A stretch of DNA of 64,000 nucleotides from Pelagibacterales bacterium SAG-MED28 (GCA_014653835.1 JACWDY010000002.1:1-64000); one strand, 5' to 3'; shown: positions 45,709 through 64,000, numbered from the stretch's first letter. Program-made: numbers and translations. Notes: generated by a model from the letters alone, not told the origin.

Positions 45709-46394
45709 TAAATCTTTGTTGCCAGTAAATCTTTTTTTAATTTATCCAAATCTCTCTTGGTATCTACACATTGCCAAAAACCATTGTGTTTAAATGCACA
45801 AAGTTGTTTTTTTTTACAAGCCCTTTCCATTGGTTCTTTCTCTAGAAAAGTACTATCCTTTTCAATCAAATTCAAAAATTTAGGCTCAATTACAAAGAAA
45901 CCACCGTTAATCCAACCTTCATCGAGTTTTGATTTTTCTTTAAAATAAGTAACGATATCCCCCTTCATTTTGATGGCTCCAAATCTTGCTGGTGGTCTTA
46001 CTGCGGTCATAGTAAACAATTTTTTTTTCTTCTTGTGGAATTTTACTAGATTTTTTATATTCACATTAGAAACTCCATCACCATAAGTCATTAAAAAAGT
46101 TTCACCAGAAATTAATTTTTTTAATCTCTTTAGCCTACCGCCAGTCATTGTATTTAAACCGGTATCAATTAGATTGATATTCCATCCAAAAGTATTGTTT
46201 TTAAAATAATCTTTTACTATTTTTCCTTTGTAGCCTAGAGCAACAATAAATTCTTTAAATCCATACTTGGCATAATTTTTCATGACATAAAATATCAATG
46301 GTTTTCCTCTAATTTGAACCATAGGCTTTGGTATTGACTTAGTGTATTCAGATAATCTAGTGCCAAAACCTCCGGCTAAAATTACAACTTTCAT
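45708..46394 (-). CDS. rfbF: Glucose-1-phosphate cytidylyltransferase
   Basis: 'MKVVILAGGFGTRLSEYTKSIPKPMVQIRGKPLIFYVMKNYAKYGFKEFIVALGYKG', 'MTYGDGVSNVNI'; start moved to internal ATG 46394. Confidence 0.94.
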   Translation of the reverse strand: MKVVILAGGFGTRLSEYTKSIPKPMVQIRGKPLIFYVMKNYAKYGFKEFIVALGYKGKIVKDYFKNNTFGWNINLIDTGLNTMTGGRLKRLKKLISGETFLMTYGDGVSNVNIKNLVKFHKKKKKLFTMTAVRPPARFGAIKMKGDIVTYFKEKSKLDEGWINGGFFVIEPKFLNLIEKDSTFLEKEPMERACKKKQLCAFKHNGFWQCVDTKRDLDKLKKDLLATKI

Positions 46395-47475
46395 AATCTT
46401 TCCTTTAAAAGTTTTTCGTAATAACATATTTGTTCATATGAATATTCTCTTATCTTTTTAGGGTTCGTATAATACTTCTTGTACCATTTAGTTGATATTT
46501 CTATTGTTTCATTGAAATTTAAAATACTTTTCCATTTTAATTTTATTCTAGCCTTTGAACAATTTAATTTTAATAAATTGGACTCATGCTGTTTAGTATT
46601 AATTTTTTTTATATGCCATGAAACATTTTTCCAGTGTTCCCTCATCTTTTTTACAAGTTTTAAAACATTATACGTTTTATTATTTGCTGGCCCAAAATTA
46701 AAAACTTCACCATGTAAATTAGAGTTATTTCTTAGCTTTGCAGCAAATAATAGATATCCCCCTAAAGCTTCAAATACATGTTGCCAAGGTCTTGTAGAAC
46801 GAGGGTTTCTTATAATAACTTTCTTTTTTTTTGACCAAGATTTCACACAATCAGGAACTAATCTGTCCGGAGACCAATCTCCACCTCCAATTACATTTCC
46901 CGCTCTTGCTACGCCAATTGAAACTTTGTTTTTTTTATTATTAAAATAAGAATTTATATATGATTGAATAATTAATTCTGCTCCTGCTTTAGAAGCGCTG
47001 TATGGATCATGACCACCAAGAATATCATTTTCCTTATAACCTCTTTTAATTTCCATATTTTTATAACTTTTATCACTAGTTATTAGTATAACAATGCATT
47101 TTTTTTTTTTCACAAACCTAAGCGACTCAAGAATATTTAATGTGCCAATAGAATTAGTTGTAATTGTCTCAATAGGATTATTATAGGATTTCTTCACTAG
47201 TGATTGTGCTGCTAGATGAAATACAAAATCAGGATTAAGCGTTTTAAATAACTTGCTAACTTTTTTAAATTTCTAATATCTAATTTTTTGTGTAAAATTT
47301 GCTTCTTTAATCCAAGAGCCTCAAAATTTGATGGTTTAGTTATATAGTCTGATGAAACACCAACTACTTTTGCTCCTAATTTTTTTAACCAGAATGTAAG
47401 CCATGATCCTTTAAAACCTGTGTGTCCGGTTACTATGATAGTTTTGTTTTTAAATGTTTTTTTCAAATTTTTCAT
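46391..47475 (-). pseudogene. rfbG: CDP-glucose 4,6-dehydratase, frameshifted in this sequence
   Basis: ORFs 47212..47475 (MKNLKKTFKNKTIIVTGHTGFKGSWLTFWLKKLGAKVVGVS..) and 46391..47197 form one RfbG; the frames join at about 47232-47240, where one extra base would give ..KRLNPDFVFHLAAQSLVKKSYNNPIETI.. Confidence 0.85.
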
Positions 47476-48380
47476 TTTATTTTTTTCTTATAATGATTAA
47501 TTGTATATTTTAAACCTCTTAACAATCCAATTTTTGGCTTCCAACCAACAAGTTTATAAACTTTCTTAATATCAGGATACGAAATCAAAGATTCATCTTT
47601 TCTAATAGGAATTTTGCCTTTATCTAATTCACCAGAATTTATAATTTTTTTAATATTTTGTATAACGTTAATAACTTTAATTGGTCGCCCGAAACCTAGG
47701 TTAATTATTTGTTTTTTAACTTTTTTGGATTTTAAAAGTAACATTATTCCTCTGATTACATCATCAATGTATAGAAAATCTCTTAATTGAGTGCCAGCGG
47801 AACAAGGAAATTTTTGATTTAGTAAACAAGATTTAATAACAAAAGGTATCAATCTATCAAATTTTTGGTGAGGACCATAAACCTGATATAACCTTATAAT
47901 TATAAAATTAAATTTAAATTTTTTTTGGTTATTCAATAAAAATTTGGTTGATAAAAACTTTGCCTTTGAATAATTAGATTTTAATTTTTTCTGGTTAATA
48001 TTCATACTTTCATTATGGGGGGGCTTATTTTGCTCATATTCAAGGCTGCTTCCTATTTGCAAAAACTTTTCTATATTTAAATTTTTAACGACATCTAATA
48101 TATTCTTTAAACCTACAAAATGTGTAAAATATGTTTTTTTGCGACTTGAATGATCAATATTTCCTCCTAGATTAATTATGTAGTCATAATTTGATTTAAT
48201 TTTTTTCTTTAGATCTTTAATTTTTGAAATGTCTGCAAGAATATATTTTACCTTTTTAATTTTTATATTTGGCTTTTTTCTGGAGAGTACTGTTACTTGC
48301 CATTTTTTTTTTAAACAATGCAAAGATAAATTAGTTCCTATAAAACCTGTTCCGCCAATTATCAGAATTTTTTTTTTCAT
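47472..48380 (-). CDS. NAD-dependent epimerase/dehydratase (SDR), probable nucleotide-sugar reductase/epimerase
   Basis: 'ILIIGGTGFIGTNLSLHCLKK', 'YSKAKFLSTK', 'IIRLYQVYGPHQKFDRLIPFVI', 'RDFLYIDDVIRGI'. Confidence 0.9.
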   Translation of the reverse strand: MKKKILIIGGTGFIGTNLSLHCLKKKWQVTVLSRKKPNIKIKKVKYILADISKIKDLKKKIKSNYDYIINLGGNIDHSSRKKTYFTHFVGLKNILDVVKNLNIEKFLQIGSSLEYEQNKPPHNESMNINQKKLKSNYSKAKFLSTKFLLNNQKKFKFNFIIIRLYQVYGPHQKFDRLIPFVIKSCLLNQKFPCSAGTQLRDFLYIDDVIRGIMLLLKSKKVKKQIINLGFGRPIKVINVIQNIKKIINSGELDKGKIPIRKDESLISYPDIKKVYKLVGWKPKIGLLRGLKYTINHYKKKIK

Positions 48381-48381
48381 A

Positions 48382-49722
48382 TCACCTATTAAAGAAAGAA
48401 TTGATACTTTTTGGTTTTTTACTTAAATTTAATAAACTTCCTTTTTTTTTAAGTTTGTAAGAAAAAATATTATTACTTATTCTTTTGGAATGAATACTTT
48501 TCCAAATTTTGTCAGAGTACAAATCAAACAAAGGATCTTCGGTAACTTGTATAATAGAATAACCTCTTTCTAAAGCTTCAACAATTGCTCCAGTTGAACC
48601 TATAAAAATTGAAAGATTCTCATTATTAAATTTTTTTTTAGTATTCAAACTTTTAATACTTTTAATCTCTTTTATTAATTGAATATTTACCTTAGTTGTG
48701 TTGGCAGCAGGGTGATTTTTTATTTTAAAACTCTTTATGTCTATTGATAATTTATCTCTTAATAATTTAAGTGATGTTGAAATATTTTCAGGTGATTTAA
48801 CAAATATCGGTAAAAATATTATATTTGAAAAAATTTTTTTTTTTAGTGTAAATCGATTTGAAGGCATAAAAATAGTTTCATTTTTCTTCCAGCCTAAAGT
48901 TCTAAAATAGTCTATTTGATCTTTTCCATTAACGATTATCTTAGATGGAGAGTATTTTTTCTTTACATAATTAGATGGGAACGGAACGGGAGGGGCGTGT
49001 ATGTAGCCTGTCAGTTTTATCTTTTTTTTATAAGTTCTTAAATATTTTATTAAGTAGTTTTGGAATGGCTGTCCCTCATAAGGGATTAAAACATTTTTCA
49101 AGTCTAATCTAATATTTTTTTTAAAAACGTTTATAAGCGTTTCTGCTAAATAACGATGTTTACTTATCATAAAATTAAAATAAGTAATATCTTTGAAGAA
49201 ATATTTAAAATTATTTTTTAAAACTTCGATAATTTTAAAAAGTGAAATTTTTTTTTTTATATCTGTTTGAAATAAAAATATATTCTTATCAATTTTATTA
49301 GGAAGAACTTGATCCATAAAAATTACAAACCATAGTGTATTTTTTGTATCTCTTGAGTTAACATTAAAATATCTATCATGAAAAGATCCATTTTTTTTAA
49401 AATTATTTTTAAAAGCCCAGGTAATAATTATTTTTTGGTAAATAAATTTTTTATCAAAGATTAATTTATATTTAGTTAAATAGCTGATGGATAATAAGTT
49501 TTTTATTACGATATATAATCTTTGAAAAATAGACACTTTTTTAGAAGCTAAGAAATTTGAATATATAAAACCAAATGTTTCGCCAGTTCTAGTTATATAA
49601 ATTGGCGAATCGAATGTGTCTTTAAATTTTATTTTTTTAAAATATGTATGAGTTTTTTTAATTTTTTCTAATACTCTGAACTGCTTTAACTTTAAATTGT
49701 CTAAGTTATTCTCATCATTCAT
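48382..49722 (-). CDS. Putative surface-carbohydrate glycosyltransferase (GT-B-like), function uncertain
   Basis: C-terminal 'NENLSIFIGSTGAIVEALERGYSIIQVTEDPLFDLYS' resembles capsule/CDP-glycerol-type transferase C-termini; locus context. Confidence 0.55.
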   Translation of the reverse strand: MNDENNLDNLKLKQFRVLEKIKKTHTYFKKIKFKDTFDSPIYITRTGETFGFIYSNFLASKKVSIFQRLYIVIKNLLSISYLTKYKLIFDKKFIYQKIIITWAFKNNFKKNGSFHDRYFNVNSRDTKNTLWFVIFMDQVLPNKIDKNIFLFQTDIKKKISLFKIIEVLKNNFKYFFKDITYFNFMISKHRYLAETLINVFKKNIRLDLKNVLIPYEGQPFQNYLIKYLRTYKKKIKLTGYIHAPPVPFPSNYVKKKYSPSKIIVNGKDQIDYFRTLGWKKNETIFMPSNRFTLKKKIFSNIIFLPIFVKSPENISTSLKLLRDKLSIDIKSFKIKNHPAANTTKVNIQLIKEIKSIKSLNTKKKFNNENLSIFIGSTGAIVEALERGYSIIQVTEDPLFDLYSDKIWKSIHSKRISNNIFSYKLKKKGSLLNLSKKPKSINSFFNR

Positions 49723-49732: not shown

Positions 49733-50458
49733 TTATTTTTTTCTTGGAGATAAATATTTTTCAACTTCAATTAAATTTTTAGGAATATCTACAGAAATTG
49801 AGCGCGAGACTTTTATAAGTTTTATTTTTGTACCTAGATCTATAAATCTTAACAATTCTATATCCTCTATACGTTCTAAGTTTGATTTTTTGTGTTTAGA
49901 AAATTTTTGTAGTTGTTTTTTAGAAAATGCGTAGATACATACTTGTTTTTTAAAATTATTGTGATTTGATTTTTTTTTTCCAGGAATAACAGATCGTGAA
50001 AAATATATTAAGTCACCGTTCTGGGCAGTAACTGCTTTAATAATATTTTTATCCTTTATTTTGGAATAATCTGTTTCATCGGCATAACCGCAAATAACGT
50101 GATTAAAATATTTTTTTTTTGCTTTGATGATTTTTTTAATATCATTGGGTTGGATTAGAGGCTCATCACCCTGAACATTAATAAAAAATTTTGACTTCAT
50201 TTTTCTAGCAGCAAATGCAATTCTATCTGTTCCTGTCTTAATGTTTTTAGGGCTCATAATTGAATTAAAGTTATTTTCACTTGCTTTTTTTTGAATTTTT
50301 TTACTATCAGTAACTATAAATATTTTACTTTTTTTAACTGCTTTTGCGCATTGTTCTGCTACTCTTATTATCATCTCTTTTCCATGAATTTTCTTGAGTG
50401 GCTTACCTTTAAATCTCGATGAATTGAAACGCGCTGGTATTAAAATTGAAAAATTCAT
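49733..50458 (-). CDS. kdsB: 3-deoxy-manno-octulosonate cytidylyltransferase-like
   Basis: 'ILIPARFNSSRFKGKPLKKIHGKEMIIRVAEQC', 'GTDRIAFAARKMKSKFFINVQGDEPLIQP', 'YGFSKKQL'-like 'YAFSKKQLQKF'. Confidence 0.9.
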   Translation of the reverse strand: MNFSILIPARFNSSRFKGKPLKKIHGKEMIIRVAEQCAKAVKKSKIFIVTDSKKIQKKASENNFNSIMSPKNIKTGTDRIAFAARKMKSKFFINVQGDEPLIQPNDIKKIIKAKKKYFNHVICGYADETDYSKIKDKNIIKAVTAQNGDLIYFSRSVIPGKKKSNHNNFKKQVCIYAFSKKQLQKFSKHKKSNLERIEDIELLRFIDLGTKIKLIKVSRSISVDIPKNLIEVEKYLSPRKK

Positions 50459-50485: not shown

Positions 50486-52072
50486 TTAATTTTTAATATA
50501 ATTCGATTTAGTTAAAAAACTTAGCTTATTTTTAATTTTTTTATCCAAATTCTTAAAAAAAATGAAAGAATCGTCCTTTTCGGGATCATTATTTTTGTAA
50601 CCATCAAAACCGGCTAAAAAGATTTTACTAACATTTCCTGAAAGACATACAGAAATCGAATATACTATTGCTAATGGTAAGTTAAATTGACAATAATTTT
50701 CTTTTATCAAAAGTTTTTTATTAGGTGAAATTTTAAAACCATAATCAAAGATTGTTTTATTATTTGCAAATAATAATTTTCTTAAATTCCTGTCCATCAT
50801 TGAAAAAGGAGTTATTAAATTTGTTTTTATGTCTTTGTAAAAAAAACTATCAGAAATAATTCTATTTGGGTGGCAAACTACTCTAAAATTAATTTCATTC
50901 TCTGGTATATGTTTATTTGTATTCAAGGCCATTACAATTAAATTATTTTTTTTGATAAATTTCGTAATCTCTGATTTTCTTTTTTTAACAGAAGCTCCTG
51001 AACCTAAAATTAAGACTTTTTTGTCTTTTAAAAAATATTTAGGACTCCACTTACCTGATGGTGACAGATTATAGCTATTTTTTTCAGTAATAATTTTTAA
51101 AGGATTAAATTTTCTCGTATCTTGTTTTTGAAGATTTTGTAAAATTACTTTATAATCCTTTGTTGAATATCTTTTGTCTGAAAGCATTTTTTGTACATAG
51201 GTAGGATGAATTTTGTGGTTTGCGGCAAATTTATAGAAATTATTTGTTCCCCATTGATATTTTTTCTTTAATTTATAAAAATCTTTTTTAATAAAATTCA
51301 ATATTAATTTGTTGGAAGATTTTACTTTGACTATTTTTTTAAAAAATTCCTCAGTTAAAGTATTACCAGGACCTCTACCCATTCCCATAATTGTGCAATC
51401 TACCCATTTACATCCATTTTTAGTAGCAATTTGACTATTTTTAAAAGCTAATTTAAGGTTATTGTGTGCATGAATTCCTAGTTCCTTAGTTGAATATTTT
51501 TTAAATTTCAGAAAAATTTTTTTTGTTTGTTTAGGTAGTAGTGAACCCAAACTATCCGCCAAATAAAGGGCTTTAATCTTTGTTTTGTTTAAAACTTTAC
51601 AAATATTCTGAATTTTTTTTAATTCTAACTCTGAAATTTGCATGATATTAACAAAAACAGTTAATCCTTTTTTTTCAAACCATTTAAAAACATCCTTTAA
51701 TTCAAAAACTTCATCTATATGGCAAGCAAACCGAATAAATTTAATTTTTTTCAAATAATTATTAGGAAAAAATTTTTTACAAATTTTAATATTATTTTCT
51801 GGCGAAGAAATGAATTCTGAAGCATTAACCATTACACCAATATTAATTTTTTTTGGTACTTTTAACAGGTTTAGGGTTTTAAGGTCAGAATGGGCAAATA
51901 TACCTTTTGAGGAGTTTTTTTTTAATGTTCTAAAACCTATTTCTACAAATTTAATATTAATTTTGTTCATTAATATTAAATATTTTTTTGCTAATCTTAA
52001 ATCAAATTGCCAATTATTGTAGTAACCACCGTCTCTTAAAGTACAATCAATAATATTTATTTTATTCAGCAT
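50486..52072 (-). CDS. HMGL-like (4-hydroxy-2-oxovalerate aldolase type) N-terminal domain fused to an uncharacterised Rossmann-like C-terminal domain
   Basis: N-term 'INIIDCTLRDGGYYNNWQFD', 'ELGIHAHNNLKLAFKNSQIATKNGCKWVDCTIMGMGRGPGNTLTEEF'; C-term 'KVLILGSGASVKKRKSEITKFIKKNNLIVMALNTN..IFLAGFDGYKN'. Confidence 0.85.
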   Translation of the reverse strand: MLNKINIIDCTLRDGGYYNNWQFDLRLAKKYLILMNKINIKFVEIGFRTLKKNSSKGIFAHSDLKTLNLLKVPKKINIGVMVNASEFISSPENNIKICKKFFPNNYLKKIKFIRFACHIDEVFELKDVFKWFEKKGLTVFVNIMQISELELKKIQNICKVLNKTKIKALYLADSLGSLLPKQTKKIFLKFKKYSTKELGIHAHNNLKLAFKNSQIATKNGCKWVDCTIMGMGRGPGNTLTEEFFKKIVKVKSSNKLILNFIKKDFYKLKKKYQWGTNNFYKFAANHKIHPTYVQKMLSDKRYSTKDYKVILQNLQKQDTRKFNPLKIITEKNSYNLSPSGKWSPKYFLKDKKVLILGSGASVKKRKSEITKFIKKNNLIVMALNTNKHIPENEINFRVVCHPNRIISDSFFYKDIKTNLITPFSMMDRNLRKLLFANNKTIFDYGFKISPNKKLLIKENYCQFNLPLAIVYSISVCLSGNVSKIFLAGFDGYKNNDPEKDDSFIFFKNLDKKIKNKLSFLTKSNYIKN

Positions 52073-52075: not shown

Positions 52076-53845
52076 TTAATTATTTGTTTCTTTGTATTCT
52101 TTAAAAAATTTAAATAAAATTCTATTTATTGCTTTTAATTCTGAATCATAAGTCAATCCACCTACATGAGGAGATACGGAGACGTTGTTATTGTTTTTTG
52201 AAAATTGAATAACTTTACTTTTATTTTTTAATATATCTTCTTCATTTCTTACAACATCAGTATAGTAAGATCTTACTTTTCTTTTTTTTATATTTTGTAA
52301 TAAAACATTCTCATCTATTAATTCTCCTCTTGAAATATTAACAATTTTAATACCTTTTTTTAAATAATGAATAGTTTTAGTGTTTAATATTGATCGTGTT
52401 TTTTCATTTAGTTTTGCAGAAATAATTAAAAAGTCTAAGTTTTTTAAAAATGATTGTAAATTATTTATTTTTTTAAAATTTTTATTTATGCAACTTACGA
52501 ACGGATCATAGTAATGTATCTTTCCTCCTAGATTATGTAAAACTTTTGAAACATTTTTTCCTATTCGACCGAATCCTAAAAAACCAAATTTTAGATTATT
52601 TATTTCTCTGCTTCTTAACTCTTTTTCAAAATTTCGCCAATTGCCTGATTTAACTACTTCTAGTGAAGCCTTATAGTTTCTCAAAGAAGCTAAAACTAGC
52701 AATAAACAAAATTCAGATGAGGCTTTAATGGTTTTAGTGTCTTTAATGCTGTTCAGACTTATCACTTTAATTTTTTTATCTGCTAAATATTTTAAATCTA
52801 AGTGGGTCAATCCAGTAGATGAGGAAATTAAGTATTTTAAATTTTGAAATTGATTTAAAACTTTACTGTTCAGTTTTTTTAATCCAGCTGTAGGCGTTAG
52901 AATTGCCGATACTTTACTTTTAATATTTGAGTTTATAAATTTATAATTATCAATTTCACAATGTATCTCGTTAATATTTTTTAGATATAATTCTTTTTTA
53001 CTTAAATCAAACATGTAATAAGGATAACTATTGAGAAAATATTTAAATCTATTTTTTTTAACAATTATTTTTGGTTTAGTGTCAAATTCTTCATCTAAAA
53101 TTGTAGCTGGAAAATTATTACACAATCCTTTCTCAATTAATTTTTCACAAGTATAAAAATCAGTCACTTCATCTATGTTTATAGATTGGAGTTCGTTCAT
53201 TATATAGGGTTTAATTTTTTTGCCCCATCTAGTAACTTTGTTTACGATAGAATCTCTTTTCATAGAATAAATTGCACCATTTCTTATAAAACATTTTGGA
53301 AAATCTTGTCTTCTAGAAATTTCATTTTCTGGATTTTTTAAATCATAATGTTCTACTAGACCTTTTTTGTTTATTCTTTTCATTCTTAATGGATGCTTAT
53401 CAAATACTCTTGCAAAACTAATCACGGAGTCATATTTATTTGTAAATAATAAATTTAGAGCTTTATCTATATCTTTTCCTGTTCTTAGTGGAGCAACAGC
53501 AGGAATTTCTATAACATACTCGAATTTGGTGTTGTAAATTTGTTCAGCTTTTAAAACAGCATCTCTTAATGCGTCTTTAGATGGGACCTTATCTTTGGCT
53601 AAAACTTTGCTTCTTAAAAAAGGTGTTTCGGCTCCATAATTTTTTGCAATTTTGGCTATTTTTTTACTATCAGTAGAGACAATTAGTTTAGAGATATTTT
53701 TTGAATTTAGACCAGCATAAATAGAATAGCTAATTAAAGGATGTCCGCCAAGTTTTTTTATATTTTTTTCTTTAATTCCTTTAGATCCAGATCTTGCTAG
53801 GATTACACCTAAAACCTTTTTTTTATTATGTTTTATTTTCACCAT
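52076..53845 (-). CDS. Fusion: acylneuraminate cytidylyltransferase-like N-terminus + D-isomer-specific 2-hydroxyacid dehydrogenase C-terminus
   Basis: N-term 'VLGVILARSGSKGIKEKNIKKLGGHPLISYSIYAGLNSKNISKLIVSTDS'; C-term 'LKFGFLGFGRIGKNVSKVLHNLGGKIHYYDPF', 'GIKIVNISRGELIDENVLLQNI', 'NNVSVSPHVGGLTYDS'; one uninterrupted 589 aa ORF. Confidence 0.92.
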   Translation of the reverse strand: MVKIKHNKKKVLGVILARSGSKGIKEKNIKKLGGHPLISYSIYAGLNSKNISKLIVSTDSKKIAKIAKNYGAETPFLRSKVLAKDKVPSKDALRDAVLKAEQIYNTKFEYVIEIPAVAPLRTGKDIDKALNLLFTNKYDSVISFARVFDKHPLRMKRINKKGLVEHYDLKNPENEISRRQDFPKCFIRNGAIYSMKRDSIVNKVTRWGKKIKPYIMNELQSINIDEVTDFYTCEKLIEKGLCNNFPATILDEEFDTKPKIIVKKNRFKYFLNSYPYYMFDLSKKELYLKNINEIHCEIDNYKFINSNIKSKVSAILTPTAGLKKLNSKVLNQFQNLKYLISSSTGLTHLDLKYLADKKIKVISLNSIKDTKTIKASSEFCLLLVLASLRNYKASLEVVKSGNWRNFEKELRSREINNLKFGFLGFGRIGKNVSKVLHNLGGKIHYYDPFVSCINKNFKKINNLQSFLKNLDFLIISAKLNEKTRSILNTKTIHYLKKGIKIVNISRGELIDENVLLQNIKKRKVRSYYTDVVRNEEDILKNKSKVIQFSKNNNNVSVSPHVGGLTYDSELKAINRILFKFFKEYKETNN

Positions 53846-53847: not shown

Positions 53848-55263
53848 TTAAATTTTTGTTTTATAATAATTTATATTTTTAGAAATATTTTGCGCTAGAT
53901 CCCAGTGTAAAGATGAATTCAATTCAAAAGCTGATAAATTATCTAAGATTTCATGTCCTATTTTTGCTGATTTACTACTACTTATTTTATTTCCTAGGTT
54001 TTTATAAATAACAAAATTTCCAGCTTCTGAATATACTTCATCTTGTTCTAGCCTAAGCAAAAATTTTGATTTTCTGTCTAAATTATAAAAACTACTATCT
54101 ATATTTCTTAATGCTTTTAACGATTTTCCATTGTGTTTAAAAAGATACTTATTAATTTTGTTTACTCCAAAAATTATTTCAAGATTATGTATTTGCATAG
54201 AGTTAATAGAATTATCAAAATGTCTTGGATCCATAAATGGACAATTAATTTTAGACACAAGAATAAAAGATGGGTTAATTTTTTTCTTTTTTTTATAAAA
54301 ACTTATAGCTTGATTGATTGACTGATCAATCATTATATTTGATGTTGCTAAAGCACTTGATCTTTTAAGCGGTATCAATCTATTATTTTTTATTTTTTTA
54401 ACATAATTAAGTACTTTGTTATCTGGGCTAGAAATAATGATGTGACTTATTATTTTTGATTTTAATAAATTATCAATGGTCCAATCAATTAATTTTTTTT
54501 TACCAAGAGTAATAAACTCAGGGGAATTTGAGTCATATTGGCTTCCTCTAATTGGAATGAACCCAATTACAATTGGTTTTTTTTTTTTAGTATTATTTTT
54601 AAAAAATATTTTTGAACGATTTTTTAAAATTTTTTCTTGATTTTTAGTTAAACTAACAGAATGTTTTCTATAATAAAATAGTGGTAAATTAATATTATGA
54701 ATTTTATACTTTTTTTGAAACCTCAACCATATGTCAACACCATCTTGGCAATTAAATTTTTCATCATAACCTCCATTTAATTTTAAAGTAGATACTTTAA
54801 ACATCGTACATGCACCATGTGCAGGTTGATCAAATAATTTTACAGACTTAAAATCATGTCTTTTTATATGAGATAAAATTTTTCCACTATGATCAACTTC
54901 ATAAAAATCAGGAAATACAAATTCTGCTTTTTTATTTTTTTCTAAATAGTTATACATAATTTCTATTGCATTGGGATGAAGCCAGTCGTCAGCATCTAAT
55001 CTAAGTATATATTTTCCTTTTGCAGCGTACAAAGCTCTATTACAAGATTTTATTAATCCAAGATTTTTTTGAAATATAGCTGTAACTAGAGGTGATTTTT
55101 TGGCAAAATTATTGATTATCGATTTAGAGTTATCTTTTGAACCATCATCAATAATTAAAATCTCAAAATCTCGAAAACTTTGGTTGAGACAACTATTTAC
55201 TGATTTATGTAAATATTTACCATAGTTGTGGTTAGTTATATATATAGTTACTTTTGTTTTCAT
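53848..55263 (-). CDS. Fusion: family 2 glycosyltransferase N-terminus + divergent CMP-sugar nucleotidyltransferase-like C-terminus
   Basis: N-term 'VTIYITNHNYGKYLHKSVNSCLNQSFRDFEILIIDDGSKDNS', 'YILRLDADDWLHPNAIEIM'; C-term 'KKPIVIGFIPIRGSQYDSNSPEFITLGKKKLIDWTIDNLLKSKIISHIIISSPDNKV'. Confidence 0.85.
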   Translation of the reverse strand: MKTKVTIYITNHNYGKYLHKSVNSCLNQSFRDFEILIIDDGSKDNSKSIINNFAKKSPLVTAIFQKNLGLIKSCNRALYAAKGKYILRLDADDWLHPNAIEIMYNYLEKNKKAEFVFPDFYEVDHSGKILSHIKRHDFKSVKLFDQPAHGACTMFKVSTLKLNGGYDEKFNCQDGVDIWLRFQKKYKIHNINLPLFYYRKHSVSLTKNQEKILKNRSKIFFKNNTKKKKPIVIGFIPIRGSQYDSNSPEFITLGKKKLIDWTIDNLLKSKIISHIIISSPDNKVLNYVKKIKNNRLIPLKRSSALATSNIMIDQSINQAISFYKKKKKINPSFILVSKINCPFMDPRHFDNSINSMQIHNLEIIFGVNKINKYLFKHNGKSLKALRNIDSSFYNLDRKSKFLLRLEQDEVYSEAGNFVIYKNLGNKISSSKSAKIGHEILDNLSAFELNSSLHWDLAQNISKNINYYKTKI

Positions 55264-56993
55264 TTTAAATTTTCTGTAATTCTAATTTCTTGATTTTTAA
55301 TTTCAAAAACTCTGTCGCAATAACTTAAAGGTTTGTTGCTGTGTGAAATAATAATTATAGTTATACTATCACTCAATTTTTTTAATATTTTTAAAACCTT
55401 TTCTTCTGTTTTCAAGTCCAAAGCATTAGTAGATTCATCCATTATTAAAACTTCGGGTGTGTGATAAAGTGCGCGAGCTAAACCAAGTCTTTGTCGCTGA
55501 CCTTGGGATAATCTAGACCCACCCTCTCCAATTTTTGTATCAAATCCATCGGGTAATTCATTAATTAACTTAATGATTTCTGCCTTATTACAACAATCCT
55601 CTAATTTCTTTAAATCAATTTTAGATTTTTCCTCAAAACAAATATTCATATAAATTGTATCATCTAATAAAAAAATTTCTTGTGGGACATAGCTAATATT
55701 TTTTTGCCAAGATTTTGGAAAATTATGAATATTAATTTTTTCTACAAAAATATTACCTTTGCTTGGTTTTTTAAATCCTGAGATAACATCTATCAAAGTG
55801 CTTTTACCGATTCCACTTTCACCTTTAATTCCAATGATTTCATTTTTATTTATTTTAAGATTTACATTTTTAAATAAAGTCCTATCAGTCTCTTTTATAG
55901 AGTATGAAACATCTTTTAATTCTATCGTTTCAAATTTTATTGATAGATCATCCTTGTCATTATTTTTATTATTTTTAAAATCTTTTATTGTTATCAATTC
56001 TTTAGTAATTAATTCAATAGATGGTTTTGAAATTTTTAATGATTGATAGCTATTATAAAGTTTTAAAAATGAAGGCATAACTCGAACAGCAGATATTACG
56101 AGCAAACTTAATAAGGCTAGAGTATTTTGAGTTTCATTTCCACTATAAAGAAAAATTACAATAGCCAAGAAAAGAGCCAATATAATTGCTACTTCTAAAA
56201 TAATTTTGGGGATCCTTACAAGTGCCTGCAAAAGTCTAGAAATGTTAAATAATTTAAAAGTATTTTTTGTAAAATCTTCTAAATATTTTTTTTCAGTATT
56301 ATATATTTTCATTTCACGGATACCATTTATACCATTTTGAATTCTATTAATTAAATGTTGATCTCCTTCTTGTCTTTCTTTTGAAAGTCTAGTTAATATT
56401 TTTTTTGTAAATAAATGATAAAGAATCATAGTGCCGAATATTGACAAGGACAATATTGCAAAAATTTTAGGGTAATAAAAAATTATTAAAAAACAAATTG
56501 CTGATGTAAATATCGCTTCAGTAACAAGAGATATAAAGTTTAAAACTCCATGAAATATATAAGAGCATTCCTTATAAACGAGATTTATTTTATAACTTGA
56601 TGCTGTTAGTGAATGATAATCTAAACTTTCGTTTAAAAATTTTTTAAAAAGTTCTTTTCTAAAAAAATATTCAATGTTCCATGATATTCTACTTTCTAAG
56701 AAAACCACATAAACTAAAATCAAATTTTTTATTATAAATGATGCAAAAATAAAAATAAAAATATACTTAATTATCTCATCCTCAGAAAAGGTAGCAAAAA
56801 TATTACTATCGAAAGGAATAAAAAATTTAACATTGGACAATTGTTCTCCTAAAAAGAATAATACTAAAGGCACAATAGAACCTATACTCAGGACTTCGAG
56901 ACCTATCGTAAAAAAGGATAAAAAAAACAAAATAAAAAAGCCTTTTTTTTGTGAACTACTCAGCAATTGAAAAAAGTTTAAAAAAGTATTCAT
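55260..56993 (-). CDS. ABC transporter, fused permease/ATP-binding (PglK/MsbA-like flippase)
   Basis: N-terminal TM domain; 'IIGIKGESGIGKSTLIDVISGFKKPSKG', 'GEGGSRLSQGQRQRLGLARALYHTPEVLIMDESTNALD'. Confidence 0.94.
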   Translation of the reverse strand: MNTFLNFFQLLSSSQKKGFFILFFLSFFTIGLEVLSIGSIVPLVLFFLGEQLSNVKFFIPFDSNIFATFSEDEIIKYIFIFIFASFIIKNLILVYVVFLESRISWNIEYFFRKELFKKFLNESLDYHSLTASSYKINLVYKECSYIFHGVLNFISLVTEAIFTSAICFLIIFYYPKIFAILSLSIFGTMILYHLFTKKILTRLSKERQEGDQHLINRIQNGINGIREMKIYNTEKKYLEDFTKNTFKLFNISRLLQALVRIPKIILEVAIILALFLAIVIFLYSGNETQNTLALLSLLVISAVRVMPSFLKLYNSYQSLKISKPSIELITKELITIKDFKNNKNNDKDDLSIKFETIELKDVSYSIKETDRTLFKNVNLKINKNEIIGIKGESGIGKSTLIDVISGFKKPSKGNIFVEKINIHNFPKSWQKNISYVPQEIFLLDDTIYMNICFEEKSKIDLKKLEDCCNKAEIIKLINELPDGFDTKIGEGGSRLSQGQRQRLGLARALYHTPEVLIMDESTNALDLKTEEKVLKILKKLSDSITIIIISHSNKPLSYCDRVFEIKNQEIRITENLK

Positions 56994-56999: not shown

Positions 57000-57296
57000 T
57001 TAATTTTCTAAATCTTTCTTTAAACTTTCATATTCTTGCATTTTTTGTTTCATAAACTTAATTGTAATTTTTGTTTTTTGTTGTAGACCCTTTGGAGTTA
57101 ACACATATAAATATTTAATTTTTTTTTTGCTTTGATTGAAGTTTCTAATTTTAACAAACCCCTTTTTTTTTAACTCTTTAAGACAATAATTAATTTTTCC
57201 CAGACTAATACCTAGCTTTTTTGACAGTAAACGTTGAGAAATTTTTTTTTCTTTATTTATTTTGTTAAGAACTTTTAAATGATCTTCATTATTCAT
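57000..57296 (-). CDS. MarR-family winged-helix regulator (EPS-associated type)
   Basis: 'HLKVLNKINKEKKISQRLLSKKLGISLGKINYCLKELKKKGFVKIRNFNQSKKKIKYLYVLTPKGLQQKTKITIKFMKQKMQEYESLKKDLE', matching EPS-associated MarR architecture. Confidence 0.88.
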   Translation of the reverse strand: MNNEDHLKVLNKINKEKKISQRLLSKKLGISLGKINYCLKELKKKGFVKIRNFNQSKKKIKYLYVLTPKGLQQKTKITIKFMKQKMQEYESLKKDLEN

Positions 57297-57321
57297 TATA
57301 ATTTTATAATACAGTTCATTT

Positions 57322-57379
57322 ATTGTACAGTAAAGGATTATCTGTTCAAGTATTGAACTTAAAGTAATTTTATTGTAAT
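57322..57379. promoter_or_regulatory. Divergent promoter region with palindromic operator candidate GTTCAA-GTA-TTGAAC (57344-57358)
   Basis: 6-bp perfect arms, 3-nt spacer; minus-strand TTGAAC (57349-57344)-16 bp-TACAAT (57327-57322) faces the MarR gene; plus-strand TTGAAC (57353-57358)-15 bp-TGTAAT (57374-57379) faces the 57387 gene. Confidence 0.55.
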
Positions 57380-57386
57380 TTAAAAA

Positions 57387-58838
57387 ATGTTTTTGATAAC
57401 TAAAACACTTAAAAAAAGTAAAGACTCTGGCAAAAATGTAGAAAATTTAAAAAAAATTATCGACTCGTCGATTAAAAAAGATAGATTAAATAAAATTTTT
57501 TTAAATGATATTTCCTCCACTATCGATCTTCCTCGTAAAGTAGTTGAAAAAAAATCTAAACAAATAATTTTGAAAGAATTTAATTATAATAAGTTCAAAT
57601 TTCAAAATACTAATAATATTTTAATTAATTTTTTTTCCAATTTAAAAATTTTATTTTATTTTTTTTCACTTTTACTATGCATACATTTCTTTAATTTTAA
57701 AAAAAAAAAAATATATACTTCTATTTTGATTGAAGATCTTCATGGTGAAAGAGCTTTAAATATTTATAATAAAATAATTAAAAAAAATAAAAAAACCTTT
57801 TTGTTGCTGCCAAATTTTTTTGTTTCAAAATATAAACTTTGTCCGTATAAGTATGTTAAATTAATTCCATATAAAAAAGATATTTTTAAAAATAAAAAAA
57901 TCGTTAGTTTAATATTTAAATATTTTTTTATAAGTTTAAAATATAAACAAAATTTTTTAAAAATATTATTTCCTATTATTTACTCGTATGCAAAAAATTT
58001 CAGCAAATATTCTTATATTAATTCAAATTATTTATTACATAGTAGAATTTATTTATCTTGCCCGATTAGAAATTACTTATACAAAAAATTAGGAGGCAAA
58101 AAAATTATAACAATTCAATCACACATTATTGAAAACACAATAAGCTTATATAGTGATATGGATCATCTACTTACATTTGGAAAAAGTGGTGAAACCAAAA
58201 AAAAGTTAATTAAGTTAGGTGGAAGGATCGATAAAATTCAGCCTGTTGGTTCTTTAAGGATGGAATATGAGTTAGATTTTAAGAGAACATTAACTAAGAA
58301 GAAAATTGATATATTAATATTGGGTGTCAATCCTACTAAGTGGATGGATACCTCTAATGACATAAAAAAAAATTACTATGTTTTTTTAGATTGGATTGTT
58401 AAAATTGCAAAATTATATCCACAATTGTCAATTACATACAAACATCACTGGAGTTTTCAAGGTGACTCTATTGAGGATAAAATATTGCTTAATTCTAATA
58501 TAAAAAGAATTATAAAAGATAAAAATAATCTTAGTAGTTATGATTACTTGAATGAAGGTAATTTGGTCCTATCATTTTGTTCAACAATGATTTTAGAGGC
58601 TCAAGCAATAAATAAACCTGCTTTTTTTATTGATCCAAACAACTCTAGTACTACCTTTTTTTCTTATTTACCCTCGTTAAAAGAGTTACGTATTAATAAG
58701 TTTAAAATGCTAGAACAAAATGTGAAAAAATTTGTTTTAAAAAAAAATTATAATTACAAAATTAAAGATAAAAATTTAATTTGCCTTAAGAGTAAAAATG
58801 TGAGTAATAAAATATTGAATTATCTAAAAAAAAAATAA
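57387..58838 (+). CDS. Putative surface-polysaccharide biosynthesis protein (GT-B-like transferase)
   Basis: 'KKIITIQSHIIENTISLYSDMDHLLTFGKSGETKKKLIKLGGRIDKIQPVGSLRMEYE' and 'NLVLSFCSTMILEAQAINKPAFFIDPNNSS' resemble polysaccharide GT-B proteins; locus context. Confidence 0.55.
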   Translation: MFLITKTLKKSKDSGKNVENLKKIIDSSIKKDRLNKIFLNDISSTIDLPRKVVEKKSKQIILKEFNYNKFKFQNTNNILINFFSNLKILFYFFSLLLCIHFFNFKKKKIYTSILIEDLHGERALNIYNKIIKKNKKTFLLLPNFFVSKYKLCPYKYVKLIPYKKDIFKNKKIVSLIFKYFFISLKYKQNFLKILFPIIYSYAKNFSKYSYINSNYLLHSRIYLSCPIRNYLYKKLGGKKIITIQSHIIENTISLYSDMDHLLTFGKSGETKKKLIKLGGRIDKIQPVGSLRMEYELDFKRTLTKKKIDILILGVNPTKWMDTSNDIKKNYYVFLDWIVKIAKLYPQLSITYKHHWSFQGDSIEDKILLNSNIKRIIKDKNNLSSYDYLNEGNLVLSFCSTMILEAQAINKPAFFIDPNNSSTTFFSYLPSLKELRINKFKMLEQNVKKFVLKKNYNYKIKDKNLICLKSKNVSNKILNYLKKK

Positions 58839-58841
58839 TAT

Positions 58842-59858
58842 TTATTTTAATTTAATTTTTTCATATTTATAAAAATTTTTTTTAAATTTTTTATTTAATA
58901 TTTTATTTATTTCTCTTGCATCCAAACCAATATTTGGTCTTAAACATAGCAAATCTTTTTTTATAATCTTTTCACCGGCCATTATGTCTCTTGCGGGATA
59001 AATAGCTCTTCTAAAAATTTCGCTATGATTTGCTGATTTTTCAGAAAAGGTTATCTTTTTAAACTTACTACCTCTCATCAAGTTTATTTCAGATATTTTG
59101 TTATTCAATGTTATAACTTCTTTGTAAGTTAGAGAAACTTTATGATCTCTAAATTTTTTTCGTTTTCTTGTATCTGTAAAGTGAAACTCCATAATTTCCG
59201 ATCCTAAAAGATAAGCTACTAATATAGCCTGATTTCCTTCTGAGTGATCAGAAAATCCTACTGTCAAACCTGTTTTTTTTCTTAAATATTTAATCGCATT
59301 TAAATTCAAATCCTCGAGTTTGCATGGATAAGATGCAGTGCATTGTAGTAATGCAAGATTATTTTTTTCTTTATAAATTCGATTAGATTTTCTGAGGAAA
59401 TTGATGGTTTGAGTTATTTCTTTCAAGTTTGATAGTCCAGTTGAAAATAGAATTGGTTTATTTTTTTTTGCTATTTCACTTAGAACTGGGTAAGCAGTTA
59501 AATCACCTGATCCAATTTTATAAAAGTCCATATATTTATCTATCCAATTAATCATCTTTACGTCCCAAACAGAGGCTGAATACTTAATGCCTTTATCTTT
59601 AACCATTTTGGCAAGATACAAATATTGAGATTTTTTCAATTGAAATTTGTTAATTTGTTTAAATCTTTTAATAGAGTTCTTTTTATTAATCAAACCCTCA
59701 CCGGAATATAGCTGAAATTTTATAACGTCTACATTGGCTTTGATAGCTAATCTGACAAGTTTTTTTGCTTGTTCAAAATTTCCCTCATGATTAGCACCAA
59801 TTTCTGCAATCATCATTGGTCCATATTTGCCTGACCAAAAAGAATTTTTTTTATTCAT
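58842..59858 (-). CDS. N-acetylneuraminate/nonulosonate synthase family (NeuB-like) with SAF domain
   Basis: 'PMMIAEIGANHEGNFEQAKKLVRLAIKANVDVIKFQLYSGEGL', 'LLQCTASYPCKLEDLNLNAIKYLRKKTGLTVGFSDHSEG', C-term 'RRAIYPARDIMAGEKIIKKDLLCLRP'. Confidence 0.93.
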   Translation of the reverse strand: MNKKNSFWSGKYGPMMIAEIGANHEGNFEQAKKLVRLAIKANVDVIKFQLYSGEGLINKKNSIKRFKQINKFQLKKSQYLYLAKMVKDKGIKYSASVWDVKMINWIDKYMDFYKIGSGDLTAYPVLSEIAKKNKPILFSTGLSNLKEITQTINFLRKSNRIYKEKNNLALLQCTASYPCKLEDLNLNAIKYLRKKTGLTVGFSDHSEGNQAILVAYLLGSEIMEFHFTDTRKRKKFRDHKVSLTYKEVITLNNKISEINLMRGSKFKKITFSEKSANHSEIFRRAIYPARDIMAGEKIIKKDLLCLRPNIGLDAREINKILNKKFKKNFYKYEKIKLK

Positions 59859-59859
59859 C

Positions 59860-61113
59860 TTAGAGTTGCCAATCTACCTTATTTTTAGGAAATATAGACT
59901 TTATATCTATAATTTTTAAATTTTTATTACCCAAAGATCTTAAGTAATTAATTGTAAATTTTTTTATCTTATTGTGAGGTACGGCTATTATTATAATATC
60001 ATAATATTTTTTTTTAAAATTTTTTTCAATTTTAATATTGTAAAGTTTATCTATTTGTTGTTTATCAACAATTGGGTCATAAACGTAAATCTTATTTTTT
60101 TTTTTAAAAAAATTATAAAGTTCAAATGCCTTCGAATTTCTAATATCATTGCAATTTTCTTTAAAAGTAATTCCAAGAAAAAGTATTTTATTTCTTTTTT
60201 TTTTGACGAGAATTTTTAATGTTTCGTCATGAATAAATTTAGGTATGGCATCGTTAACTTTTCTACCTGATGAAATCATAAAAGGTCTAAAGCCAGTTTT
60301 CAGAGCTTTATATTTCAGATAATATGGGTCAACACCAATACAATGACCCCCGACTAAGCCTGGTATAAAATTTATAAAATTCCATTTAGTATTAGCGGCT
60401 GCTAATACATCTTTTGTATTAATGTCTAACTTGTGAAAAAGCATCGAAAGCTCATTTACAAACGCAATATTAATATCTCTTTGGCTATTTTCAATAACTT
60501 TTGCAGCCTCTGCAGTTTTTATATTAGCGGCTACAAATAATTTTCTTTTAACAACTTTACTATAGATTTCTTTCATTAATTTTGTTGCCTTTAAATTTGA
60601 TCCACTTATGATTTTTATTTGATTGCTTAATTTATATTTTGACTTTCCTGGATCAATCCTTTCTGGAGAATAACCAACAAAAAAATCTTTATTAAGTGTA
60701 AATTTTGTTTTTTTTTCAATTATTGGAATTAAAATATCGTCAGTACAGCCAGGGTAAACGGTTGACTCAAAAACTATAGTGCTATCTTTTTTAAGATGAG
60801 ATGCAACAATTTTAGTTGCTCTTATAATACTCCTAAGATCTGGTTTTTTATTTTTATCTACAGGTGTGGGAACAGTAATAATAAAAATATTACTTTCTTT
60901 AATGTGTTTTTTTTCATTTGAAATAAATATTTTAGAATTCTTTATTAATTTTTTAGAGCTTTCACCTGTAATATCAATTCCTTTTTTTAACTTTCTAACT
61001 CTTTCAGAATCAATATCAAAACCTACAACTTTAAAATATTTTGATAAAGATAGAGCCAAAGGTAAGCCTACATAACCTAATCCTATTAAGCTTATTTTAT
61101 ATTTATTTGACAT
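59860..61113 (-). CDS. UDP-N-acetyl-hexosamine 6-dehydrogenase (TviB/WbpO-like nucleotide sugar dehydrogenase)
   Basis: 'ISLIGLGYVGLPLALSLSKYFKVVGFDID', 'VFESTVYPGCTDDILIPIIE', 'VGYSPERIDPGKSKYKLSNQIKIISG', 'FINFIPGLVGGHCIGVDPYYL'. Confidence 0.94.
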   Translation of the reverse strand: MSNKYKISLIGLGYVGLPLALSLSKYFKVVGFDIDSERVRKLKKGIDITGESSKKLIKNSKIFISNEKKHIKESNIFIITVPTPVDKNKKPDLRSIIRATKIVASHLKKDSTIVFESTVYPGCTDDILIPIIEKKTKFTLNKDFFVGYSPERIDPGKSKYKLSNQIKIISGSNLKATKLMKEIYSKVVKRKLFVAANIKTAEAAKVIENSQRDINIAFVNELSMLFHKLDINTKDVLAAANTKWNFINFIPGLVGGHCIGVDPYYLKYKALKTGFRPFMISSGRKVNDAIPKFIHDETLKILVKKKRNKILFLGITFKENCNDIRNSKAFELYNFFKKKNKIYVYDPIVDKQQIDKLYNIKIEKNFKKKYYDIIIIAVPHNKIKKFTINYLRSLGNKNLKIIDIKSIFPKNKVDWQL

Positions 61114-62074
61114 TATAATAATCCTTGTACCAATTTACAAAATTTTTAATACCCATCAAAAAATTAGTAGGTTTTTTAAATTTTATAATTTTTTTTATTT
61201 CTTTCGAATAAGATAAAGACGCAGGTATATCCGTCGATATTTTTTTTTCTAAAATTATTTTGGCTTTTTTATTTAATTGCTTTTCTAAAATTTTAACTAA
61301 GGAAATAATTTTAATTTTTTTCCCTGAAGAGATATTTAATATTTTAAAGAAATTTTTTTTCTTCTTAACTTTCATTAATTTATAAATATTTTCAATTAGA
61401 TCCTCTATATACGTGAAATCTCTGTAATTGTTACCCCGATTGTACAGTACCAATTTTTTACCACTAATAATTTGATTACAAAATTTAAAAATACTTAAAT
61501 CTGGCCTGCCGTATGAGCCGTAGACAGTAAAAAACCTTATGCCAAACATACTTATATTAAATTGTCTATTATAATAATATGCTAAAATTTCATTATTTTT
61601 TTTAGTTGCGCCGTAGAGGGAGATGGGATTATCTGTTTTTTGCTTCTCATCAAAAGGTAGTCTATTTAAACCATAAATAGACGAAGATGAGGCAAAAATT
61701 AATCTTTTAACTTTGTATTTTTTTGAAAGCTCAAGTAAATTAAAAAATCCTAATTCATTCGTATAGATATATTTTTCGGGAAATTTTAAAGAATATTGAA
61801 CCCCTGCATAAGCAGCTAAATTTATAATTTGATCAAATTTATTTTTTTTAAAAATTAAATTTAGCTTTTTAAAATTTGAAATATCTGTTTTTAAAAATTT
61901 AAAATAATTATTTTTTTTTAATATACTAAGTCTTTTAACCTTAAGCTTTTTATCATAATAATTATTAAGAGTATCAATACCAATCACTTGGATTTTTTTA
62001 TTTATAAGTAATTTTGCTAAATGAAAACCTATAAATCCAGCGCATCCAGTAATTAAAATTTTATTATTAATCAT
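61103..62074 (-). CDS. NAD-dependent epimerase (UDP-uronate/hexosaminuronate 4-epimerase-like)
   Basis: 'ILITGCAGFIGFHLAKLLINKKIQVIGIDTLNNYYDKKLK', 'SSSSIYGLNRLPFDE', 'YGATKKNNEILAYYYNRQFNISMFGIRFFTVYGSYGRPDLSIFKF'. Confidence 0.93.
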   Translation of the reverse strand: MINNKILITGCAGFIGFHLAKLLINKKIQVIGIDTLNNYYDKKLKVKRLSILKKNNYFKFLKTDISNFKKLNLIFKKNKFDQIINLAAYAGVQYSLKFPEKYIYTNELGFFNLLELSKKYKVKRLIFASSSSIYGLNRLPFDEKQKTDNPISLYGATKKNNEILAYYYNRQFNISMFGIRFFTVYGSYGRPDLSIFKFCNQIISGKKLVLYNRGNNYRDFTYIEDLIENIYKLMKVKKKKNFFKILNISSGKKIKIISLVKILEKQLNKKAKIILEKKISTDIPASLSYSKEIKKIIKFKKPTNFLMGIKNFVNWYKDYYNVK

Positions 62075-63188
62075 TAGTAGCTAAATTTTTAAACCACACT
62101 TTTGTTTTATATCTCCAATTAGAAAAAAAAGGAGTTTGAATAGTTGAAAAAAGTAAATCAAAATTCTTTGGTATTGGAAAATTATCAATTATTACTTCTA
62201 TATGACTAGTGTCTTTACGGGCAGTAGGTTTATTTGAGTTGCTAGAAACAATTAATTTTACTGACTCAGGTAAATTCTCTAAATAATATTTAACTGTCTT
62301 AAAACCCATTTCACTAAATGAAGCAAAATTACACATTAAATCAAAATCATTATATTTTTTTATCTCATCAAAAAATGCAGACGGAATTAAATAAATTTTT
62401 TTTAAATTTAAATTAAGCTTAGAGTGAATTTCATTTTTAGAATTAATTAAATCAACTTTATCCTCGCCAAATTTTGAACATAAGTAATAATATGCAATAG
62501 TGAGTGATGAAGGTACATCAAATATAGTTACAGATTGTATTTTTTCATCATCATGCAATCTTTCTGCGAGAGATCCAAAACCTCCTCCTATTTCTAAAAT
62601 ATTAAATTTTTTTTTATTTTTGATAAGATTAAGAGAGTTAATTATCAAATTTTTTTGACTATTTGATGAAATGTCTAAAAAATGAAACTTATTTTTATCT
62701 TCGCGATACCCCCATTTATTAATTCTATCTGAAGTTGGTAGTCCAGAAAAATTTCTAAAGATAATTTTATATAATTCAACATCCCTCAAAAAAAGAATTA
62801 AAGCAGTATAGTCTTTCTTTATTTCGTTATAATGGGAATAACTCCAAAGACCCTTAATTAAAGAATTGTAGAACATATTTTCATGTAACAGGATAATCTT
62901 CTCTAAATCACCGCTTCCGTAGGTTTCAAATTGATCTTTTTTATTTATTAATAAATAATTTTTCCATAATCCACTAATTTTCAAATTTTCATTAATTTCA
63001 AAATTGTTGTAAAGAAAATCACACTTTTTATAAAATTCTAATATTTTTTTTACAATTTTTTTTTTCAAATCGAGATTTTTTACCTTTTCGAGTTTAATTG
63101 GGCCATCACTATAAAATTTTAATTGAAGTTTTTGTAATTTACTTTTTGTTCTAAAAAAATTTACGCAATTTATTGCAAATTTAATCAT
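62067..63188 (-). CDS. Putative sugar O-methyltransferase
   Basis: 'KKFNILEIGGGFGSLAERLHDDEKIQSVTIFDVPSSLTIAYYYLCSKFGEDKVDLIN' SAM-binding pattern; matches putative sugar O-methyltransferases of glycan loci. Confidence 0.8.
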   Translation of the reverse strand: MIKFAINCVNFFRTKSKLQKLQLKFYSDGPIKLEKVKNLDLKKKIVKKILEFYKKCDFLYNNFEINENLKISGLWKNYLLINKKDQFETYGSGDLEKIILLHENMFYNSLIKGLWSYSHYNEIKKDYTALILFLRDVELYKIIFRNFSGLPTSDRINKWGYREDKNKFHFLDISSNSQKNLIINSLNLIKNKKKFNILEIGGGFGSLAERLHDDEKIQSVTIFDVPSSLTIAYYYLCSKFGEDKVDLINSKNEIHSKLNLNLKKIYLIPSAFFDEIKKYNDFDLMCNFASFSEMGFKTVKYYLENLPESVKLIVSSNSNKPTARKDTSHIEVIIDNFPIPKNFDLLFSTIQTPFFSNWRYKTKVWFKNLATND

Positions 63189-63205
63189 TTTTTATATTTA
63201 TAATT

Positions 63206-63265
63206 ATGATATGTTTTATACACATATTGTTCAATATTTGAACAATCTATCATTTGTGCTATAAT
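63206..63265. promoter_or_regulatory. Divergent promoter region with 21-bp palindrome ATTGTTCAA-TAT-TTGAACAAT (63226-63246)
   Basis: 9-bp perfect arms; plus-strand TTGAAC (63238-63243)-16 bp-TATAAT (63260-63265) faces the 63311 gene; minus-strand TTGAAC (63234-63229)-17 bp-TATCAT (63211-63206) faces the 63188 gene. Confidence 0.6.
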
Positions 63266-63310: not shown

Positions 63311-64000
63311 ATGAAATCAATATCATTAAGCGATTTAATGAATAAAGCTCATCCTTGGGAAAATTCCAATTATTACCACTTAAAATTTAAATTTTTAAAA
63401 AAAAAACACAAAAAATTCTTAAAAATTTTTCACTCTATCTTAAACAAAAATCACAATGTGAGATTTTCAGAAAAATACTGGGAAATTATATTAAGTAATT
63501 ACATATTTCAAATTTTGTACATTTACTACGAAAGAAAAGAATGTGTTAAAAGTTTTAAAAGAATAAAAACTTTTAAATTGATTAATAACAATCCAAAAAT
63601 AAGGTCATATGAGGATTTAAGAACGAACTTTGAATTTTTGCATGAATATATTCACACTAAGATTGTAGAACATTATTTTCCTCGCAAAAAAAAAATATAT
63701 TTTGAAAAGTTCTTTAAATTAAATGAGGCATTTAAAAAAAATAAATCTATAAATTATATATTGAATTATTTTTTTGAAAAAATCTTTAATATTATATTCT
63801 CTTTCAAACGAAATACAAAAGTTTGCAATGTCGGTAGTAAAGGTTTTATCTCAAAAATAAAATTACATTCCTTATTTAAAAAATTTAATATGAGTCTAGA
63901 AATGAATTATAAACTAAACTCCGATATAAGAAAAAAATTATTGAATTATTCAAATTTAAAAGCCGAACAAAAACTTATATTTTCGTTAATGATTAATTTA
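63311..64000 (+). CDS. Surface-glycan-associated putative transferase (possibly LIC12162-like), truncated by window edge
   Basis: Open frame from ATG 63311 to window end: MKSISLSDLMNKAHPWENSNYYHLKFKFLKKKHKKFLKIFHSILNKNHNVRFSEKYWEIILSNYIFQILYIYYERKECVKSF... 'S.KYWEIILSNYIFQ..YIYYER' resembles LIC12162-family N-termini. Absent from ORF track because it has no stop. Confidence 0.55.
   Translation, partial: MKSISLSDLMNKAHPWENSNYYHLKFKFLKKKHKKFLKIFHSILNKNHNVRFSEKYWEIILSNYIFQILYIYYERKECVKSFKRIKTFKLINNNPKIRSYEDLRTNFEFLHEYIHTKIVEHYFPRKKKIYFEKFFKLNEAFKKNKSINYILNYFFEKIFNIIFSFKRNTKVCNVGSKGFISKIKLHSLFKKFNMSLEMNYKLNSDIRKKLLNYSNLKAEQKLIFSLMINL

Follow-up and report, generated by a model that had tools for sequence, protein, structure and literature searches.

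The window considered here, a stretch of 64,000 nucleotides from Pelagibacterales bacterium SAG-MED28 (JACWDY010000002.1, positions 1-64000), encodes on its minus strand at 57000-57296 a 98 amino acid (aa) winged helix-turn-helix protein of the MarR_EPS family, together with three palindromic sites, termed O1, O2 and O3, that are candidate operators for it. The TIGR04176 profile matches residues 2-97 of the 98 with 122.1 bits (E 8.9e-36) and thus passes the curated cut-off of 88 bits, in agreement with an earlier note on this DNA which had named the gene a MarR-family, exopolysaccharide (EPS)-associated regulator. Its locus is a surface-glycan locus with a PglK-like exporter, a glycosyltransferase and PseF-, KdsB- and NeuB-like neighbours. 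Among the Pfam models the general winged helix-turn-helix families HTH_24 (41.3 bits) and HTH_27 pass, while the MarR models PF01047 (21.2 vs 24.6 bits) and PF12802 (22.5 vs 27 bits) stay below their gathering scores. The recognition-helix region, SLGKxN[YF]C, is kept among relatives of the regulator, and the closest solved structure by sequence is LrpA (1i1g, E 4e-6). The predicted structure comprises a helix-turn-helix core and a long C-terminal helix with the wing unresolved, in a weak model with a mean predicted local distance difference test (pLDDT) of 72.5 and a predicted template modelling score (pTM) of 0.44. No relative was found when viral contigs were searched with the regulator, and to our knowledge MarR_EPS has no known ligand.

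O2 is a perfect operator candidate, GTTCAAGTATTGAAC, at 57344-57358, located 30 bp upstream of O1 and 28 bp before the divergent gene that starts at 57387. O3 at 63226-63246 is likewise perfect and has 9-bp arms, ATTGTTCAA-TAT-TTGAACAAT, the whole site reading ATTGTTCAATATTTGAACAAT; it lies 5.9 kb from O2 between two divergent glycan units. The earlier note had described both as palindromes with the common core GTTCAA-N3-TTGAAC in divergent intergenic regions, and both are present and exact and are placed accordingly in the gene map. It had overlooked O1, an imperfect third site at 57314-57328 (GTTCATTTATTGTAC, or GTACAATAAATGAAC when read on the minus strand) which occupies the spacer of the regulator promoter at -32 from the ATG, with two mismatches to the note's own pattern and one to the family pattern GTTCAWNNNWTGAAC. 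All three sites are listed without a strand. A comparison of the motif with chance had also been suggested, and here the exact pattern GTTCAANNNTTGAAC was found twice in the entire assembly (994,863 bases, 42 contigs), as O2 and O3 and nowhere else, where composition predicts 0.11 occurrences of GTTCAA-N3-TTGAAC per genome at 28.1% GC, a value that together with the size of about 1 Mb fits SAR11; coding sequence is practically free of the motif. The reversed control pattern has zero exact matches in the same 994,863 bases. Allowing one mismatch yields 10 matches in the assembly against 8 for the reversed control, so the mismatched copies add background only and the exact arms carry the signal.

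Conservation of this arrangement was followed through 197 genomes of the host's family, from which 100 regulator loci were fetched, 97 of them with readable upstream sequence. The regulator is present in 101 of the 197 genomes (97 over the cut-off) and the exact motif in 93, which contradicts the earlier description of this regulatory layer as uncommon. Exact copies of GTTCAWNNNWTGAAC lie within 150 bp upstream of the start codon at 84 of the 97 readable MarR_EPS genes; such a copy is present at 42 of the 1,170 remaining genes of these loci and in none of 20,000 shuffled versions of the upstream sequence. Two or more sites, with one mismatch allowed, occur at 59 of the 97 regulator genes with a modal spacing of 23 bp. 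The strict motif is found in 81 of 97 genomes with the regulator and in 12 of 100 without it (Fisher 1.1e-25), and the association holds inside single genera, at 38/43 vs 2/10 in genus g1 and 12/16 vs 1/34 in genus g4 (Fisher 5e-5 and 2e-7), while the reversed control is unlinked to the regulator (7 vs 21 occurrences). At least two of the 12 exceptional motif genomes (G086 and G121) hold regulator fragments beside the site. At 95 of the 97 loci the next gene shares the regulator's strand, and at 87 it lies no more than 50 bp away, with a median gap of 2 bp.

A promoter consensus was derived from 50 tandem loci aligned on their upstream site. It reads CTTTACT-[GTTCAAtaaTTGAAC]-nnTAtanT, so that the operator fills the 17-bp spacer between the -35 (TTTACT) and -10 (TATAAT) boxes, with CTTTACT directly preceding the operator and TATAnT following 2 bp past it. 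Mean matches at this register are 3.86 of 6 for the -35 and 3.96 of 6 for the -10 box, and no other register attains both. The downstream site of the tandem pairs often covers the stretch just before the start codon. The palindrome in its own promoter that is looked for in a MarR-type autoregulator is therefore found, at 84 of 97 loci, with the operator in the promoter spacer. In the window a promoter scan, read together with the relatives' CTTTACT and TATAnT, points to a putative -35 box TTTACT at 57329-57334 and a putative -10 box TATTAT at 57306-57311, both on the minus strand and 17 bp apart. Since TTTACT / GTACAATAAATGAAC / TATTAT repeats the consensus arrangement of the relatives, O1 is taken to be the operator of the regulator promoter, and O2, on the side of the gene at 57387, is a predicted upstream auxiliary or divergent operator.

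The arms of O2 and O3 had earlier been read as -35 boxes (TTGAAC) spaced 15-17 bp from a -10 box. Three of these pairs were called as consensus promoter matches, namely TTGAAC-16-TACAAT on the minus strand (57349-57322), TTGAAC-17-TATCAT on the minus strand at O3 (63234-63206) and TTGAAC-16-TATAAT with an extended -10 on the plus strand (63238-63265), but the plus-strand pair at O2 with its 15-bp spacer was not. The arm-as--35 geometry is plausible and may hold at O3, where each strand has a plausible -35 box overlapped by an arm and the plus strand also has the extended -10; regulator promoters do not generally follow it, their operator sitting in the TTTACT/TATAAT spacer. The alternative promoter TTGAAC-16-TACAAT, whose -10 would lie inside O1, is possible and is without backing from the relatives. 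As a general -35 box TTGAAC was rejected, as it is unsupported by the regulator promoter consensus and keeps no single register at the distal sites. No terminator was found in scans around O1/O2 and O3.

Further sites in the fetched loci are intergenic in 35 of 36 cases, in sequence that is 88% coding (p 8e-32); the sole exception touches a start codon and none of the 36 lies between convergent genes. The genes downstream of these distal sites include matches to the sugar-nucleotide and glycan families PseB, LegB, PseF, KdsB, NeuB, FnlA and LIC12162-type transferases. The enrichment in intergenic DNA of the glycan island that the earlier note had proposed to test is thus borne out, with 35 of the 36 distal sites intergenic and upstream of glycan genes. 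A complete search of 24 genomes placed 70 of 74 sites within 25 kb of the regulator. From the placement of the distal sites, their glycan targets and this proximity it is therefore concluded that the motif is a local code of the glycan island.

Outside the host's family, a phylum-wide sample of 399 genomes contains the regulator in 38 (26 over the cut-off), several of which carry GTTCA-N5-TGAAC just upstream. A separate scan of a species-level genome collection yielded 79 regulator loci, including loci from Marinomonas, Methylotenera, Methylobacillus, Methylophaga, Microbulbifer, Herbaspirillum, Alcanivorax and Desulfobulbus. Across the Gamma- and Betaproteobacteria and Desulfobulbus the site lies within 200 bp upstream at 70 of the 78 loci with enough upstream sequence, and five of the remaining eight have one 0.5-1.7 kb upstream. 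Of the checks that had been named, conservation beside orthologous regulators holds in other classes and in Desulfobulbus, and co-occurrence with the regulator holds in the family. Neither the flanks nor the five central bases are constant, so it is the ten arm bases that are conserved. Outside the family the regulator is typically followed by a gene for a sugar-nucleotide enzyme. Genome-wide counts of the shorter GTTCA-N5-TGAACG across the phylum are uninformative, since the pattern specifies so few bases that 281 of 399 genomes contain it; for genomes beyond the family the conclusions are accordingly drawn from the place of the site next to the regulator.

Several variants of the regulator were observed in these searches. 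Homologues of 213-231 aa, below the cut-off, occur in genomes of 7-9 Mb (G483:C1:4931937-4932284 and G396:C118:345564-345936), and each is closely preceded by a pair of GTTCA-N5-TGAAC sites spaced 26-29 bp apart. Some regulators of family f38 (L176, L177 and L178) show no GTTCA-N5-TGAAC in the upstream sequence searched and have GTTCA(C/T)ATG at the start codon instead; L178 possibly carries a shorter palindrome, GTTCATATGAAC, with a 2-bp gap. At L190 (genome G586, 1-1821, minus strand) a MarR_EPS-like domain is apparently fused N-terminally to a bifunctional ATP sulfurylase/APS kinase-like protein, the enzyme being named by inspection, and similar long frames are found in 14 genomes of family f13, with open frames of 690-705 aa. 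The fusion suggests a link between the MarR_EPS-like domain and sulfate activation.

By its arrangement the regulator is the predicted first gene of a tightly packed, roughly ten-gene glycan operon on the minus strand, with mostly few-base gaps, that extends down to about 45.7 kb. The second gene (55260-56993), after a gap of 6 bp, encodes a PglK/MsbA-like ABC exporter or flippase, which matches the PglK model with E 1.5e-75 and falls short of its cut-off, and the third (53848-55263) is glycosyltransferase-like (EpsE-type glycosyltransferase, E 8.5e-22, also below its cut-off). The next three encode a PseF-like cytidylyltransferase joined to a 2-hydroxyacid dehydrogenase-like region (52076-53845), an HMGL-type aldolase-like protein (50486-52072) and a KdsB-like CMP-sugar synthase (49733-50458). 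Further tightly packed genes on the same strand occupy 45708-49722 and encode a no-family protein (48382-49722), a dehydratase/epimerase (47472-48380), a CDP-glucose 4,6-dehydratase (46391-47197) and a sugar-1-phosphate cytidylyltransferase (45708-46427). The CDP-glucose 4,6-dehydratase gene lacks its first ~90 residues, and because these are read in another frame at about 47197-47472 on the minus strand, a frameshift in the assembly, real or in error, is indicated there.

On the other side of O2 the divergent gene at 57387-58838 (plus strand) encodes 483 aa with no Pfam or NCBIfam match. O3 is flanked on its minus-strand side by a four-gene unit whose first gene (62067-63188) encodes a NanM-type sugar O-methyltransferase (TIGR04371, 96.1 bits vs a cut-off of 44). 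The rest of the unit (58842-62074, minus strand), in which genes overlap or are at most 2 bp apart, comprises epimerase-like and nucleotide-sugar dehydrogenase-like genes, named by inspection, and a NeuB/PseI-like synthase (E 6.8e-74 and 3.5e-56, below the cut-offs). The divergent gene after O3 (63311-64000 in the window and on to about 64,890 of the contig, plus strand) encodes a LIC12162-type transferase-like protein of 526 aa, whose TIGR04331 match (L139:15812-17389; E 1.1e-41, 143 bits) is below the cut-off of 225.

Taken together, it is proposed, with a probability of about 0.88, that GTTCAA-N3-TTGAAC, with GTTCA-N5-TGAAC as its family consensus, is the operator of the MarR_EPS protein at 57000-57296, which would autorepress its glycan operon and control neighbouring glycan units. 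The protein would act as a dimer in which each recognition helix probably reads one 5-bp arm. A dimer on O1 would fill the spacer between the -35 and -10 boxes and a second dimer on O2 would assist it, the second site of the relatives being mostly about 23 bp away. RNA polymerase would be kept out by the dimers on O1 and O2, and the regulator would therefore autorepress the operon that it heads; as this operon has roughly ten genes, autorepression would gate all of it. The same regulator may act via O2 on the divergent gene at 57387 and via O3 on both of the divergent glycan units near 63.2 kb. That the protein binds DNA, does so as a dimer and represses instead of activating is deduced here from sequence comparison. 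The earlier proposal that the regulator autoregulates and controls glycan genes of the island is supported by conservation, co-occurrence and glycan targets, with the amendment that autoregulation covers the long downstream operon and not the regulator alone.

A number of points weigh against this interpretation. No exact proximal site is present at 13 of the 97 family loci, of which five keep a site with one mismatch and two bear tandem sites ahead of the gene that lies upstream of the regulator; the other six are unexplained. O1 in the window itself is imperfect, the structure model of the regulator is weak, and the distal sites are without one common promoter geometry. The loci also share ancestry and the counts are not independent, a weakness that is reduced in part by the tests made inside single genera and by how broad the collection is. 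Because the distal sites differ in promoter geometry, activation at some targets is possible. That the palindromes are MarR_EPS operators at which the regulator activates, or both activates and represses, is nevertheless unlikely: the variable position of distal sites relative to promoter-like elements and the ability of several members of the wider winged-helix group to activate speak for it, but the operator of its own promoter lies inside an optimal 17-bp spacer and the second site often reaches the start codon, which is the usual layout of steric repression.

Binding of the palindromes by another transcription factor of the glycan island, with the MarR_EPS gene as merely one target, is considerably less probable. 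It would account for the ten genomes that have one or two sites without a detected regulator, but many such genomes are incomplete and regulator fragments are present in two other exceptions, the motif tracks MarR_EPS inside single genera (as in g4) and the site adjoins the regulator across distant groups. The perfect inverted repeats could also form small hairpins and might hence be terminators or attenuators acting at the RNA level, yet this is a slim prospect, as the arms are of 5-6 base pairs, no terminator was found, the central bases vary freely, the sites serve divergent genes on both strands and, in the regulator promoter, the operator precedes the transcript, being placed between the -35 and -10 boxes. 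The least probable explanation is that of chance palindromes in AT-rich intergenic DNA, with which the ordinary two-mismatch count in the 64-kb window (10 found vs 6.6 expected) would agree. Exact matches are far above expectation, track the regulator, avoid coding sequence and recur in genomes of higher GC, and a chance origin was rejected on the exact counts, the reversed control pattern, the shuffles and the intergenic placement.

It is about as likely as not that MarR_EPS forms with GTTCA-N5-TGAAC a portable regulator-operator cassette, whose DNA specificity would have stayed the same throughout the Pseudomonadota and in some Desulfobacterota even as the controlled glycan genes were exchanged. 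A new glycan cassette in the island would then come under the regulator if it brought the site with it, as is suggested by the satellite sites of the sampled genomes. Surface glycans are main targets of phages and grazers and are encoded in strain-variable islands in ocean bacteria with few regulators. The operator predicts co-regulated glycan genes in uncultured organisms, and its regulator is found in about half of the sampled family genomes and in many Gamma- and Betaproteobacteria.

The window gene is a member of TIGR04176 MarR_EPS by curated score and, in keeping with this, sits in a polysaccharide locus. The literature searched, which does not cover subscription journals and preprints, yielded no operator for the family; a candidate DNA target is hence newly assigned here to a named and apparently unstudied family, and it can be read from sequence because the same site adjoins the regulator across the Pseudomonadota and in Desulfobulbus. 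Like the autorepressors MarR, OhrR and SlyA, MarR_EPS is a small winged-helix protein with an inverted-repeat site, predicted autoregulation and predicted divergent targets. It differs from them in its length of about 98-110 aa, in its GTTCA-N5-TGAAC arms, in Pfam MarR scores below the cut-offs and in heading a glycan operon. The LexA boxes, GTTC-N7-GTTC or GAAC-N4-GTTC, have the GTTC/GAAC tetramer in common with the MarR_EPS site; the latter is an inverted repeat, GTTCA-N5-TGAAC, concentrated in glycan islands, an arrangement other than that of LexA. RfaH and UpxY are, like MarR_EPS, encoded at the head of long polysaccharide operons (capsule, O-antigen), but they act on elongation whereas MarR_EPS has the signature of a DNA operator at initiation. 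At 5 of the 35 loci sampled MarR_EPS is directly followed by an antiterminator gene of the RfaH/UpxY/NusG type, so both layers can act in combination, and control of initiation and of elongation would seem to be coupled at the head of some EPS operons.

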